DNA of 56,099 nucleotides from Syntrophaceae bacterium (GTDB lineage: Bacteria > Desulfobacterota > Syntrophia > Syntrophales > UBA2185), in NCBI GenBank assembly GCA_003153775.1, contig PMBI01000044.1:31176-87274 (forward strand), written 5' to 3'. The position numbers and the translations under genes were made by a program. Below the pieces are notes generated by a model that was not told the origin of the DNA, did no database searches, and saw only the letters and a program-made list of their open reading frames with translations. Positions 31,098 to 36,549 of the stretch are shown in pieces (the stretch's first letter is position 1; every line of letters starts with the position of its first letter).

Positions 31098-31236
31098 TGA
31101 CCGGCCGAGAGAATCTTATCAGGCAGTGAAGGATGCAGACAGTGTTATCAGGTTTCGATGTTTGATATTTCTTTACTGCCAAAACTATCGGATTACCTCT
31201 TCTTTATGAGGATGTGGGGATAAGAGGCACGAAATA

Positions 31237-34200
31237 ATGTTGCAGCGGCTAGCGAGAGGATCATCAGGCAAAGAACAGTACAAAGTTGCGTGGACGGATG
31301 ATCCATTTAGTGGACAGGGAACATTCACGTGGCCTGATGGAAGTCAGTATACCGGAGACTGGGCGGATGGCCTCCCCAGCGGGACGGGAACATACTTGTG
31401 GCCCGATGGCAGCAAGTTTGAAGGCGAATGGCAGGGGGGAGTGCCGCATGGAAGCGGAGAGTATACATATTCCGACGGGACAAAATATCAAGGCAAGTGG
31501 AGGGCCGGCAACGAAAGCGACGGGAAAGCCCGCTTAGCTTTAGAGCTGCAGGCCAGAGCAGAAGCGGAAGAGATAGCAAGGGCGGAGACAGCGGCGGAAG
31601 CGCGAGTTCAAGAAGAAGCCCGGTTGACAGCGGACTTGAGAGTGAGGGCGGAGGCGGAAGCAAGGCTCAGAGAAGAAGCCGAGGCCGGAAAGAAGGCAGT
31701 AGCTGAGGCGGAAGCAAGGGCCGAAGCGGAAGTCAAAGCGCGGATTCAAGTGGAAGGCCGCCTGGCAGCAGAATTGAAGGCGAGAGAAGCAGCGGAAGCA
31801 CGGTTTACAGAGGCAGCCGGCGCAGGGAAGAGGGCTGCAGAGGAGGCGAGAGCAAGAGCGGAGGCGGAGGCAAGGGCGGAAAAGGAGGCGAAGGCGCGAT
31901 CCCACATAGAGGCCCGCCTGGCGGCCGAATTAAAGGCAAGAGAAGAGGCGGAAGCCAAGTTCCGGGACGTGGCGAATGCAGGGAAAAAGGCGGCAGAAGA
32001 AGCAAAAGCAAGGGCCGAAGCGGAAGCGAGAGCACGTCTAGAGGTGGAAGCCCGGCTGGCACAAGAAACGAGGGCTCGGGAAGAAGCCGAAGAAAAGTAT
32101 AGAGGAGTGGCGGAGGCAGGGAAAAAGGCAGCAGAAGAAGCAAAAGCAAGGGCCGAAGCGGAAGCGAGAGCGCGTGTAGAGGTGGAAGCCCGCCTGGCGG
32201 CCGAGGTAAGGGCGAGAGAAGAAGCTGAGAGGGCGGCAAGGGAGGAAGCGAAGGCCGGTAAGAGAGCAGCAGAGGAAGCAAGAGAGAGGGCGGAGGCCGA
32301 GACAAAGGCACGGGCTCACGTGGAAGAGCAACTGGCGGCTGAACTTCGGGCGAGAGAAGAAGCGGAAGAGAAATTCAGAGGAGTAGCTGAAGCAGAGAAG
32401 AAGGCAGCAGAGGAGGCAAGAGCGAGGGCGGAGGCCGAGGCAAAGGCGCGGGCGCACGTGGAAGCAAGATTGGCGTCCGAGCTAAGGGCTCGGGCAGGAG
32501 CTGAAAAGTTAGCGAAGGAGGAAGCGGAGGCCGGGAAGAGGGCTGCAGAGGAAGCGAGAGCCAGGGCGGAGGCGGAAGCAGCGGCGCGTGCGCACGTAGA
32601 AGAGCAACTGGCGGGCGAATTGAGGGCGAGAGAAGCAGCGGAAGCTAAGCTTACGGAGGCAGCCGGTGCCGGGAGAAAGGCAGAAGAGGAAGCAATAGCA
32701 AGGGCGGAAGCGGAGGCGAAGGCAAGAGCCGAACTGGAAGTCCGCCTGGCTGCGGAATTGAAGGCGAGAGAAGAAGCGGAAGCGCGTTTCAGGGAGATAG
32801 CGGAGGCGGGGAAGAGGGCTGCGGAAGAGGCGAAGGCAAGAGCCGAAGCGGAGGCAAAGACGCGGGCCGATGTTGAAGGCCGCCTGGCTGCGGAATTGAA
32901 GGCGAGGGAAGAGGCGGAAGCGCGGTTCAGAGAGGAGGCGGAGGCCGCAAAGAGGGCGGAAGAGGAAGCAAAAGCGAAGGCGGCAGCGGAGGCGAAGGCG
33001 AGGGCGCGCGTAGAAGAGCGTCTGGCCGGTGAGTTGAAGGCGAGAGAGGAAGCTGAAGCGAGGTTCGCAGAGGCGGCGGGCGCCGGTAAGAAAGCAGAAG
33101 CGGAAGCAAAGACGAAGGCAGAAGCGGAGGCCAAGGCCAGGGCCCATGTGGAAGCCCGTTTGGCTGCGGAATTAAAGGCCAGGGAAACGGCGGAGGCGCG
33201 GTTCAGAGAAGAAGCAGAGGCGGCGCGGAAAGCAGAAGAGGAAGCAAAGACGAAGGCGGAAGCGGAGGCCAAGGTCAGGGCCGAAGTGGAAGACCTGCTG
33301 GCAGCCGAGATGAGGGCGCGACAGGAAACTGAAAAGAGAGCCAGGGAAGAGGTAGGGGCAGGGCGGAAGGCCGAAGCGGAAGCTAAAACGAAGGCGGAAG
33401 AAGAGGCCAAGGCGCGAGTCCTTGTAGAGGCGCGGCTGGCGGAAGTGGGAAAGGCAAGGGAAGAAGCGGAAAGGAGGGCAAAAGAAGAGGCAGAAGCGAG
33501 GAGGAAGGCGGAAGCAGAAGCAAAGGTAAGGGCAGAAGCAGAGGCCAAGGCGCGGGCTGAAGTGGAGACCCGTTTGGCGGAAGAGGCGAAAGCCAAACAG
33601 GAGGCAGAGGCGAGAAAGAGGGCGGAAGCCGAAGCGAAAGCAAGAGCTGAAGCAGAGGCCAAGGCGCGGGCCGAAATAGAGACACGTTTGGCAGCAGAGG
33701 CAAAGGGAAGGGAAGAAGCGGAAGCCAGGCTGAAGGTGGAAACGGAAGCGCGAACCAAAGCGGAAGCAGAAGCGAAGGTACGGGTTGAAGTAGAGGCGCG
33801 CCTGGCAGAAGAAGCAAAGGCCAGGGAAGAGGCGGAAAGAAAAGCCAAGGCGGAAGCAGAGGCCAGAAAGAAGGCGGAGGCAGAAGCTAAGGCCAGGGCT
33901 GACGAGCAGGAAGAGGCAGAGGCAAGAAGCAAAGCGGAAGAGGAGGCCGAAACTTTCGGAAAGAAGGCGGCTATCTCTCATGGTCAATGGTCAATCACCT
34001 ATCCCGATGGCCGAAGCTATGTGGGTCAACTAAAGGATGATCTTCCCCACGGACAGGGAACCATGATCCTTCCCGGCGGTGAGAAGTATATGGGCGAGTG
34101 GAAAGCGGGAGAAAGGAATGGACAGGGCCTTTTCACCCTCGCGGACGGCTCCGTCTATACCGGACATTGGAAGAAGGACGTGAGAGAAGGCGAAGGAGTA

Positions 34201-34608
34201 TTGACCCTGGCGGGTGGACGAAAATACACAGGCGGATGGAAGGGTGACCAATTCCACGGAGAAGGCCTTGATATCTATCCGGATGGAAAAAAATATGAAG
34301 GTCAATTCAAGACGGGGAAATATGAAGGCAAGGGTTCTCTGATCCTTGCCGATGGGACAAAATATGTGGGTGAATTTAAGAATGGGTTGTCAAATGGGAA
34401 AGGGGTCCTGACATATCCAAACGGAGACCGATACTCGGGAGAGTTCAAGAACAACAAGTATCATGGACGGGGTGTACTTTCCCTGAAGGATGGAAGAAAA
34501 TATGAAGGTGAAATGGAAAATGGCCTGCCTCACGGCCAGGGAACGATGACATTTCCAGGCGGCAGGAAATATCAGGGGCGGTTCGAGAACGGCAAATTTA
34601 CCGGATAA
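31237..34608 (+). CDS. Giant MORN-helix-MORN protein (1123 residues)
   Basis: Three N-terminal MORN units (about 24-92; YTGDW, FEGEW, YQGKW) and nine C-terminal ones (about 910-1123; YVGQ through YQGR) flank about 810 residues made almost wholly of Ala, Glu, Lys and Arg. That middle has 18 units anchored by a RLAAEL-type motif, mostly 46 residues apart (138 bases in the DNA), with a shorter first unit and 38-residue spacing near the end. It should be a continuous helix or coiled coil roughly 120 nm long. There is no signal peptide or membrane segment, so it is probably cytoplasmic. MORN units often bind membranes or proteins. No stop interrupts the repeats, arguing for selection. I know no characterised homologue of this architecture; function is open. 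A strong promoter drives it and a second MORN gene follows. Confidence 0.88.
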   Translation: MLQRLARGSSGKEQYKVAWTDDPFSGQGTFTWPDGSQYTGDWADGLPSGTGTYLWPDGSKFEGEWQGGVPHGSGEYTYSDGTKYQGKWRAGNESDGKARLALELQARAEAEEIARAETAAEARVQEEARLTADLRVRAEAEARLREEAEAGKKAVAEAEARAEAEVKARIQVEGRLAAELKAREAAEARFTEAAGAGKRAAEEARARAEAEARAEKEAKARSHIEARLAAELKAREEAEAKFRDVANAGKKAAEEAKARAEAEARARLEVEARLAQETRAREEAEEKYRGVAEAGKKAAEEAKARAEAEARARVEVEARLAAEVRAREEAERAAREEAKAGKRAAEEARERAEAETKARAHVEEQLAAELRAREEAEEKFRGVAEAEKKAAEEARARAEAEAKARAHVEARLASELRARAGAEKLAKEEAEAGKRAAEEARARAEAEAAARAHVEEQLAGELRAREAAEAKLTEAAGAGRKAEEEAIARAEAEAKARAELEVRLAAELKAREEAEARFREIAEAGKRAAEEAKARAEAEAKTRADVEGRLAAELKAREEAEARFREEAEAAKRAEEEAKAKAAAEAKARARVEERLAGELKAREEAEARFAEAAGAGKKAEAEAKTKAEAEAKARAHVEARLAAELKARETAEARFREEAEAARKAEEEAKTKAEAEAKVRAEVEDLLAAEMRARQETEKRAREEVGAGRKAEAEAKTKAEEEAKARVLVEARLAEVGKAREEAERRAKEEAEARRKAEAEAKVRAEAEAKARAEVETRLAEEAKAKQEAEARKRAEAEAKARAEAEAKARAEIETRLAAEAKGREEAEARLKVETEARTKAEAEAKVRVEVEARLAEEAKAREEAERKAKAEAEARKKAEAEAKARADEQEEAEARSKAEEEAETFGKKAAISHGQWSITYPDGRSYVGQLKDDLPHGQGTMILPGGEKYMGEWKAGERNGQGLFTLADGSVYTGHWKKDVREGEGVLTLAGGRKYTGGWKGDQFHGEGLDIYPDGKKYEGQFKTGKYEGKGSLILADGTKYVGEFKNGLSNGKGVLTYPNGDRYSGEFKNNKYHGRGVLSLKDGRKYEGEMENGLPHGQGTMTFPGGRKYQGRFENGKFTG
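31500..33950 (+). repeat. 138-base coding tandem repeat (46-residue helix unit)
   Basis: Coding repeat inside the MORN gene: 18 degenerate units. One well-preserved pair is GCAGAAGAAGCAAAAGCAAG at about 31993 and again exactly 138 bases later. The plus strand is strongly purine-rich (GAGGCGGAAGC-type runs), which keeps the opposite strand open for over 500 codons without meaning. Confidence 0.85.
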
Positions 34609-34639: not shown

Positions 34640-35224
34640 GTGTTGAAAAAGCTGGTCAAAGAAATATTTGAGAGCGGACAGGTTGACTTTGCGTTGAAGG
34701 ATGACGTCCATGAAGGTAAGGGAGTTTATGGCCATCCCGACGGGAGCAGTTATGACGGCCTGTTTAAGGAAGGCGTTTTTCAAGGTAAGGGGATCTTCAA
34801 ATGGCCCGACGGAAGCAACTATGAGGGAGATTGGGACAAGGGCCTTCCAACCGGACAGGGGGTTTTGAAGTTCGCTGACGGCAGCCGTTATCACGGCGCA
34901 TGGAGAGAAGGCGGTATCAATGGGATAGGGACATTGACCCAGCCTGATGGAAGCAAATATGTAGGACAGTGGAAGAACGGCAGTAGAAACGGGAAGGGAG
35001 TGTTAACACTCCCGGACGGCAAGAAGTACGATTGCGAATGGGAAGATGATAAGTTCCACGGCAAGGGAACTTTGACATTCCCGGACGGTTCCATGTATAC
35101 AGGCAATTGGAAAGAAGACAAGTTTTACGGCATAGGGGTTCTAACACTTCCGGACGGTTCGAAACATGAGGGTGAATGGTCCGGCAATAAATTTAAATTC
35201 CTCCTCAAAAAAGAGAAACGGTAG
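34640..35224 (+). CDS. Seven-unit MORN repeat protein
   Basis: The 194-residue protein is seven MORN units of about 23 residues (YDGLF, YEGDW, YHGAW, YVGQW, YDCEW, YTGNW, HEGEW) after a short N-terminal helix (MLKKLVKEIFESGQ). The fifth unit has Cys in place of Gly and the seventh His in place of Tyr. The start is GTG at 34640 behind AGAGGTGAT. It begins 31 bases after the large MORN gene on the same strand, so co-transcription is likely. Its units closely resemble the C-terminal units of the neighbour, suggesting duplication. No enzyme domain is attached; a binding or scaffold role is inferred. Confidence 0.85.
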   Translation: MLKKLVKEIFESGQVDFALKDDVHEGKGVYGHPDGSSYDGLFKEGVFQGKGIFKWPDGSNYEGDWDKGLPTGQGVLKFADGSRYHGAWREGGINGIGTLTQPDGSKYVGQWKNGSRNGKGVLTLPDGKKYDCEWEDDKFHGKGTLTFPDGSMYTGNWKEDKFYGIGVLTLPDGSKHEGEWSGNKFKFLLKKEKR

Positions 35225-35364: not shown

Positions 35365-36549
35365 ATGATGGCGGAACAGAAGACGGGCGAATATCTGCGG
35401 ACTTTTTTCGATGTGAATCAAACTATTTTCTCCTCTTTCTCTCTCAAGGAAATACTCAAAATTATCGTGAAGAAAACTGTCAGCGCCCTCGGGGCTAAGG
35501 CCGGAAGCCTGAGGCTTCTCGACGACCGGACCAAGCGTCTGGAGCTTGCTGCATCGCATAACCTCAGCAAAAAGTATCTTGACAAAGGGCCCTTGAGTTC
35601 CGACCAAAGCATCCCGGAAGTTCTGGAAGGGAAAGTCGTCCTTGTCAAGGATGCCCACAACGATTCGAGAATTCAGTATAGGACAGAGAAGATAAAAGAG
35701 GGCATCAACACGATCCTCTCAGTACCGGTGGTTGCGAAAGATAAAGTCATCGGCGTTCTCAGGCTCTATTCAGGAGAGCCCAGGGACTTCAGCGCTGAAG
35801 AGATCGAATTAGTCTCGGCACTGGCAGAGATGGGCGGGCTTGCAATCGCCAATGCGAAAATCTATGAAGATGAGGGCGTCAGACTTTCTTCCCTCCTCAA
35901 ACAGGTCGGCATCGACCTTCCAAAAGAGCGGAAAAGGCCGAAGCAGAAATTAAGGCCTCTTGCCATGCAACCGGTCGATTCTTCCCATGGCCTCGATTAT
36001 TTCCGGGCGCTCCATGATATTGCCAAGACCATCCTGTCCACCCTCGACTCACGGCGGGTGATAGACCTGTTGATCGGAAAAGTGCTCGCGATCACGGCCG
36101 TAAGGGCGTGCTCGCTGCGCCTGGTCAACGAAACGACGCGGGAGCTTGAACTGGTTGCATCTGAGGGACTGAGTGAAAGCTATCTCCAAAAGGGACCTGT
36201 CCATATGGACAAGAGCATCCGCGAGACACTGAAGGGCATGCCTGTGCTGATCTTCGATGCGTCAGCGGATCCGCGGATCGAGTATCCACAGGAAAATGCC
36301 CGGGAAGGTATCGCCTCGATCCTCTCCCTGCCCATCATAGCCGGGAAGCGCGTTATCGGGATCCTCAGGCTGTATTCGCAGGAGCCGAGGCAGTATAGCG
36401 GGAACGAAGTGGCCTTCCTCTCGGCTGTGGCAGAGCTCGCAGGTCTTGCCATCATAAATGCCAGGCTGTACGAGAAAACCAAGTATGACCTTTCCTTCTG
36501 GAAGACGACGCTGGAATATCTCGATGCGGAAAGCGCCCAACGGAAATGA
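35365..36549 (+). CDS. Tandem GAF-domain sensor protein without output domain
   Basis: The 394 residues contain two similar GAF domains, about 10-170 and 215-375, each ending in the pattern IGVLRLYSGEPRDFSAEE / IGILRLYSQEPRQYSGNE with a following ALAE/AVAE-GLAI helix. They are joined by a basic linker (PKERKRPKQKLRP, about 184-196). GAF domains bind cyclic nucleotides, haem or small ligands; neither copy shows a diagnostic motif. There is no kinase, cyclase, HD or DNA-binding domain, so it must act through a partner. The two halves look like an internal duplication. AAGGTGA precedes the ATG; the next codon is also ATG. Confidence 0.88.
   Translation: MMAEQKTGEYLRTFFDVNQTIFSSFSLKEILKIIVKKTVSALGAKAGSLRLLDDRTKRLELAASHNLSKKYLDKGPLSSDQSIPEVLEGKVVLVKDAHNDSRIQYRTEKIKEGINTILSVPVVAKDKVIGVLRLYSGEPRDFSAEEIELVSALAEMGGLAIANAKIYEDEGVRLSSLLKQVGIDLPKERKRPKQKLRPLAMQPVDSSHGLDYFRALHDIAKTILSTLDSRRVIDLLIGKVLAITAVRACSLRLVNETTRELELVASEGLSESYLQKGPVHMDKSIRETLKGMPVLIFDASADPRIEYPQENAREGIASILSLPIIAGKRVIGILRLYSQEPRQYSGNEVAFLSAVAELAGLAIINARLYEKTKYDLSFWKTTLEYLDAESAQRK

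Follow-up and report, generated by a model that had tools for sequence, protein, structure and literature searches.

To our knowledge, hardly any of the MORN proteins that are common in bacteria is understood. The named MORN structures that were matched in this study by sequence or fold are all eukaryotic, with MORN1, junctophilin, and MORN4/Myo3a among the nearest solved folds. MORN arrays are best known as modules for contacts between proteins. MORN1 of trypanosomes and apicomplexans (PDB 6t4r, 6t68, 6t69, 6t6q, 6t4d) is the best match in both sequence and fold, and it shares arrays of 23-residue hairpins with the proteins described here. It dimerises tail to tail by its C-termini, structural work on it favours protein-protein interaction, and it did not bind membranes (PMC7725318). 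In junctophilins (PDB 7rw4, 7rxe, 9uo9), two separated MORN groups are combined with a helical region to link two membranes, which makes these proteins a precedent for a tether. Their order is MORN6-join-MORN2-helix-TM with a tail anchor, and no long rod lies between the groups (PMC8934682). MORN4, which is small and built of MORN repeats only, binds the tail of a myosin in its groove (PMC7725318; complex with myosin IIIa, PDB 6jle).

In this study, we analysed a pair of MORN genes in a stretch of 56,099 nucleotides of DNA from a Syntrophaceae bacterium (hereafter the window). MORN1 consists of MORN repeats alone, with no rod, no second array, and no known adjacent MORN partner gene, whereas the protein described here carries a long rod between two arrays and is encoded beside a MORN-only gene. 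MORN4 may serve as a model for that neighbour, but the MORN4/myosin IIIa pair is eukaryotic, and what the neighbour would presumably bind is itself a MORN protein, the one with the rod. Single alpha-helix (SAH/ER-K) spacers, known for example from myosin 10 and INCENP, have dense i/i+4 opposite charges and few large apolar residues. Compared with them, the rod is far longer, Ala-rich, and bacterial, and it has a 46-residue period.

Results

The rod gene starts with ATG and has zero internal stops over 1123 amino acids. Pfam MORN (PF02493) matched its product in 11 stretches located at both ends (E 1.1e-58, 192 bits against a cut-off of 22.5), and no domain other than MORN was found by Pfam search. 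In the AlphaFold model, strands were placed at aa 17-89 (N array) and 911-1117 (C array) with pLDDT of ~80-94, and a helix mostly at aa 96-837 with low confidence (mean pLDDT mostly 50-70). An earlier reading made from the sequence only had proposed an extremely long helix with a MORN array at either end, and this layout was borne out by Pfam, the repeat motif, and AlphaFold, the helix at low confidence. The C array matched MORN1 at E 1.3e-51 and junctophilins at E ~1e-26. The two arrays differ in charge, with a pI of 4.9 (acidic) for the N array and 9.3 (basic) for the C array. The rod is composed of 33% Ala, 26% Glu, 14% Arg, and 9% Lys, with zero proline. Signal peptide, TM segment, and cysteine were all absent from the rod protein (maximum 19-residue hydropathy, KD19, 0.11), and no hydrophobic segment of the junctophilin-type C-terminal tail anchor was found in it. 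The long ORF on the opposite strand (32316-33932) is most probably a side effect of codon composition. No Rfam RNA was found in the window.

Table 1. Positions of the rod gene, its parts, and the partner gene in the window.
Feature	Position	Strand	Basis
Rod gene, MORN - long helix - MORN, 1123 aa	31237..34608	+	ORF list, Pfam, AlphaFold
Probable Shine-Dalgarno AAGAGG, 9 nt 5' of the rod-gene ATG	31222..31227	+	Sequence read directly
N-terminal MORN array, aa 1-92, ~3-3.5 repeats, acidic, without signal peptide or TM	31237..31512	+	
Rod, charged and helical, 807 residues (aa 99-905), Pro-free, 276 opposite versus 12 same charge pairs at i to i+4	31531..33951	+	
12 units at an exact 46-residue (138 bp) spacing, aa 224-775	31906..33561	+	Anchor spacing
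2 units of 38 residues (46 minus 8), aa 776-851	33562..33789	+	Anchor spacing
C-terminal MORN array, aa 908-1123, 8-9 repeats, most conserved part	33958..34605	+	
MORN-only partner gene, product of 194 aa with 6-7 repeats, GTG start	34640..35224	+	ORF list, Pfam, AlphaFold

The rod had been read as 810 residues long with a 46-residue period and 18 units. We counted 807 residues, and the autocorrelation of the rod peaked at 46 (0.62), 92 (0.59), and 138 (0.55); in sister rods, composition would give ~0.2. An 8-residue period was also strong (autocorrelation 0.41). The anchored unit spacings were, in order, 47, 52, twelve times 46, and twice 38, giving about 17-18 units. The late units do shrink to 38 residues as had been noticed. 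Since 38 equals 46 minus 8 and 8 is itself a strong period, they are better described as units that lack one 8-residue sub-unit. At the DNA level, the mean identity between units was 68% (maximum 79%, neighbours 71%), and the longest exact repeat was 41 bp. With units this divergent, and neighbours just slightly closer to each other than the average pair, the array is old and does not stem from a recent amplification. An assembly collapse or repeat artefact is also unlikely as the source of the rod structure, since the units are too divergent.

We then considered the type of helix. The excess of opposite charges at i/i+4 amounted to a net 0.33 per residue in the rod versus 0.00 ± 0.02 in shuffled sequences, and large apolar residues made up 10% of the rod. 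This chemistry looks like the signature of a single salt-bridged alpha-helix and agrees with the sequence criterion for SAHs. A weaker, Ala-based periodicity of 3.54 could allow coiled-coil pairing. Large apolar residues alone gave a period of 4.18 (46/11), and 3.54 (46/13) appeared solely once Ala was added. As both values are harmonics of 46, the earlier arithmetic of 13 turns, or six heptads plus a stutter, is one possible reading of the period and does not discriminate between helix types. A heptad-type apolar periodicity near 3.5 was clear in two relatives (G053 and G026) and less clear in the window rod. A straight helix of this rod would span ~121 nm, which agrees with the ~120 nm first estimated. 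If single, the helix would be flexible: with a persistence length of 15 nm, the computed rms end distance of this 121 nm contour is ~56 nm; with a stiff 150 nm, it is ~107 nm.

Comparison of the window with the same-genus genome G002 gave dN/dS of 0.07 for the C array, 0.11 for the rod, and 0.21 for the N array, values from a counting method that are rough because of composition bias. In the same comparison, 57% of the rod substitutions stayed within a chemical class versus 34% expected from random single-base changes. Charge flips were found in 4 of 118 (3%) versus 12% expected, and proline was involved in 0 of 118 versus 4% expected. The sister pair G002/G003 had rod changes with no class bias (14/44 versus 33% expected), so the chemistry argument depends on the more distant comparisons. 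These results indicate that the ORF at 31237-34608 is a real protein under purifying selection.

A MORN-only gene lies directly 3' of the rod gene in the window and in 23 of the 24 relatives with downstream DNA. The lone exception was the second rod-gene copy in G005. The partner protein scored 131 bits to Pfam MORN (cut-off 22.5), and its AlphaFold model (pLDDT 88.3) had MORN1 as the best PDB match (Foldseek E 1.3e-17). Tandem repeats of ~23 residues and the beta-hairpin sheet fold of the MORN family were found in both the rod protein and the partner. In relatives, the partner is ~190-220 aa long, and the two genes are separated by tens of bases or overlap, by 4 nt in several loci. By gene order, the adjoining MORN-only gene is the most constant feature of the locus, a link that the first reading did not contain. 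Pairwise distances among the C array, N array, and partner were correlated (r 0.85-0.90), as would be expected for a unit inherited together, and part of this correlation reflects shared species descent. Beyond the partner, a GAF-GAF gene (35365-36549 in the window) was next in six loci and hypD/hypF in five. Among the fetched relative loci, no neighbour other than the partner was conserved order-wide, so the neighbours past it indicate no pathway. A flagellar role was rejected, as flagellin is missing from ~11 genomes with the rod gene (e.g. G002, G003, G005, G007, G008, G068, G088, G096).

The distribution of the system was examined by a whole-protein search of 100 related genomes, from which the regions around the matches were fetched and parsed. 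The search for homologues with both MORN ends, proposed from the sequence alone, found the same layout in the window's genus, its family, and many families of the order. With a model of the C array, 24 genomes out of the 155 in the class scored >=259 bits, every one of them from the window's order (Syntrophales), and three more matched weakly. Over 395 genomes sampled across the phylum Desulfobacterota, the matches were the window genome and a second Syntrophales genome, and no rod/partner pair was found outside Syntrophales among them. A homologue without one of the arrays had been named as evidence against the design. The complete single-contig genome G042 has such a shortened form, with a short coil and the C array, no N array, and no partner seen. 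The same-genus G001 gave no C-array match at cut-off. Together with the shortened form in G042, this shows the system to be dispensable. The relatives are nearly all metagenome-assembled genomes. In one of them (G008, contig C129, L073), a second, broken-looking copy has the N and C parts of the rod protein in separate frames.

Two further MORN proteins are encoded in the window genome. One is rodless, with 423 aa and 16 repeats (L071, contig C94, 6842-8110), and occurs also in G001 (L081). The other is small, with an apparent N-terminal signal sequence (hydrophobic, then Ala-Gly-Cys), and is possibly exported (L072, contig C50, 5422-6024). A broader named scan was read from the best 80 of 317 loci and required C-array motifs, so that unrelated MORN-rod-MORN proteins would escape it. 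Among these 80, no other long helical rod between MORN arrays was found, and the nearest layout past Syntrophales was that of Candidatus Electrothrix and other Desulfobulbaceae (L148, L156, L164), MORN11 and MORN7 joined by a low-complexity linker of 200-250 residues. These proteins differ in that the linker is no helical rod, the array sizes are other, and no adjacent MORN-only gene was seen; the two-array proteins of the Desulfobulbaceae, which include cable bacteria, are perhaps an independent design. In SAR324 and other proteobacterial contigs (L111, L114, L142), four to six MORN genes lie side by side.

The spacer itself varied strongly between relatives. Intact genes encode spacers of ~370 to ~1340 residues, at most a 3.6-fold difference within the order; the spacer of G012 contains a run of N, which makes its length unusable, and metagenome-assembled repeats can be wrong. 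The comparison of rod length between relatives had been suggested from the first reading, and the length was not constant. Within the window's genus the rods have 540, 784, and ~810 residues. Between the sister species G002 and G003, the alignment has a single large gap, 230 residues or exactly 5 x 46, besides small ones of 6 and 20, and between the window and G003 the gaps are 138 (3 x 46) and 144 residues. The spacer period also differs by lineage. A strong 46-residue period was confined to the window's genus; many relatives have a period of 8, others 32, 39, or 71, and Syntrophus-like genomes 67, 68, or 135. The spacers with periods of 67, 68, or 135 are of the classical coiled-coil type; that of G053 has an apolar period of 3.56 (power 28) and an i/i+4 ratio of 52:25. 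In G030 and G011 (L064, L066), a Pro/Glu-rich spacer lies between the same two arrays. It has 91-102 Gly or Pro per ~410 residues, which makes a continuous helix impossible. Free change of repeat number with frameshifts had also been named as evidence against the design. The number does vary freely, and the changes are in frame at a dN/dS of ~0.11. Length, period, and even the helix vary among relatives, and therefore none of these is conserved, unlike the two ends and the partner. These results suggest that the spacer evolves freely in frame, by whole units or by replacement, with the MORN ends and partner kept.

Discussion

MORN repeats and charged single helices are already known. The literature searched contained no description of the two joined in one protein that has its own partner and whose spacer is exchanged freely, no characterised bacterial protein of this type, and no paper joining Syntrophus and MORN, which agrees with the earlier statement that no characterised bacterial protein has such a layout. 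We propose that the rod protein is soluble, most likely resides in the cytoplasm, and acts as a tether with two binding ends, an evolvable spacer, and a MORN partner encoded beside it, a reading to which we give about an even chance. As the rod protein has no signal peptide, TM segment, or cysteine, a tether or scaffold in the cytoplasm is the best reading. The N-terminal (3-repeat) and C-terminal (8-repeat) arrays would be protein-binding or dimerising modules, and the rod would serve as their spacer, mainly a single salt-bridged alpha-helix on which the reach of the two arrays depends. The MORN-only neighbour is probably in the same operon and would most likely be the direct partner of one array. 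Spacer length and type are altered by whole repeat units or by replacement, with the ends and partner retained. Because the spacer differs in both length and type between relatives, the tether would be adjustable rather than a fixed ruler.

A cytoskeletal or polar scaffold is an unlikely alternative. The C arrays would dimerise tail to tail into a bipolar rod, at most ~250 nm long and carrying an N-terminal MORN head at both ends, which would cross-link itself or other structures into a filament or mesh. The C-terminal tail-to-tail dimers of MORN1 are consistent with this arrangement (PMC7725318). So are the position of the C array as the most conserved part of the rod protein and the true coiled-coil rod of some relatives (apolar period 3.56, power 28). 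However, an 807-residue single salt-bridged helix would be flexible, with an rms end distance of ~56 nm at a persistence length of 15 nm, and in two genomes the spacer is not helical.

We regard a junctophilin-like membrane tether, in which one or both MORN arrays would sit on lipid, as rather improbable. The basic C array (pI 9.3) would suit such a role, but the N array is acidic (pI 4.9) and a TM anchor is absent. Junctophilins do provide the precedent of two MORN groups and a helical region joining two membranes (PMC8934682), whereas MORN1 showed no membrane binding (PMC7725318).

Still less probable is a true molecular ruler, in which rod length would determine how large a structure becomes in each species. 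The first reading had offered ruler or tether; the tether fits the layout, and the ruler fails on the range of ~370-1340 residues, the 5 x 46 jump between sister species, and the Pro/Glu-rich swaps. A very long helix is under purifying selection, and whole-unit changes would move its length stepwise, as a ruler would have it. Yet the spacer chemistry is swapped, even to a Pro-rich form, no conserved structural operon lies beside the gene, and its presence does not track flagella. With three rod lengths in one genus, a fixed-length ruler was rejected.

A TolA-like cell envelope protein is almost certainly the wrong identity: the rod protein scores 68.8 bits with NCBIfam TIGR02794 (TolA_full, cut-off 59.45) and shares a long Ala/Glu/Lys-rich helix with TolA, but the best-scoring stretch sits in that rod, the N-terminal TM (maximum KD19 0.11) and the TolA/TonB C-terminal globular domain III are both missing, and the C-terminus gives just MORN even at E 1, so the label is a composition artefact. 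Automatic annotation may mislabel rod proteins as TolA, since TIGR02794 passes its cut-off on the charged rod.

Starting again from the two-ended tether with its partner, a bolder and doubtful proposal is that the pair is a MORN cytoskeletal cross-linker private to Syntrophales, made of two genes, with a rod of up to 200 nm and a partner, and with its span tuned by units or swaps. If true, it would be a bacterial MORN-based cross-linker of cellular structures whose span is set by gain or loss of helix units or by exchange of the spacer. The conserved ends, the near-constant partner, and a spacer swapped among single helix, coiled coil, and Pro-rich linker make this locus a clean case, in which two questions become testable: what the arrays of bacterial MORN proteins bind, and whether such a rod serves as a mere tether or requires a set length.
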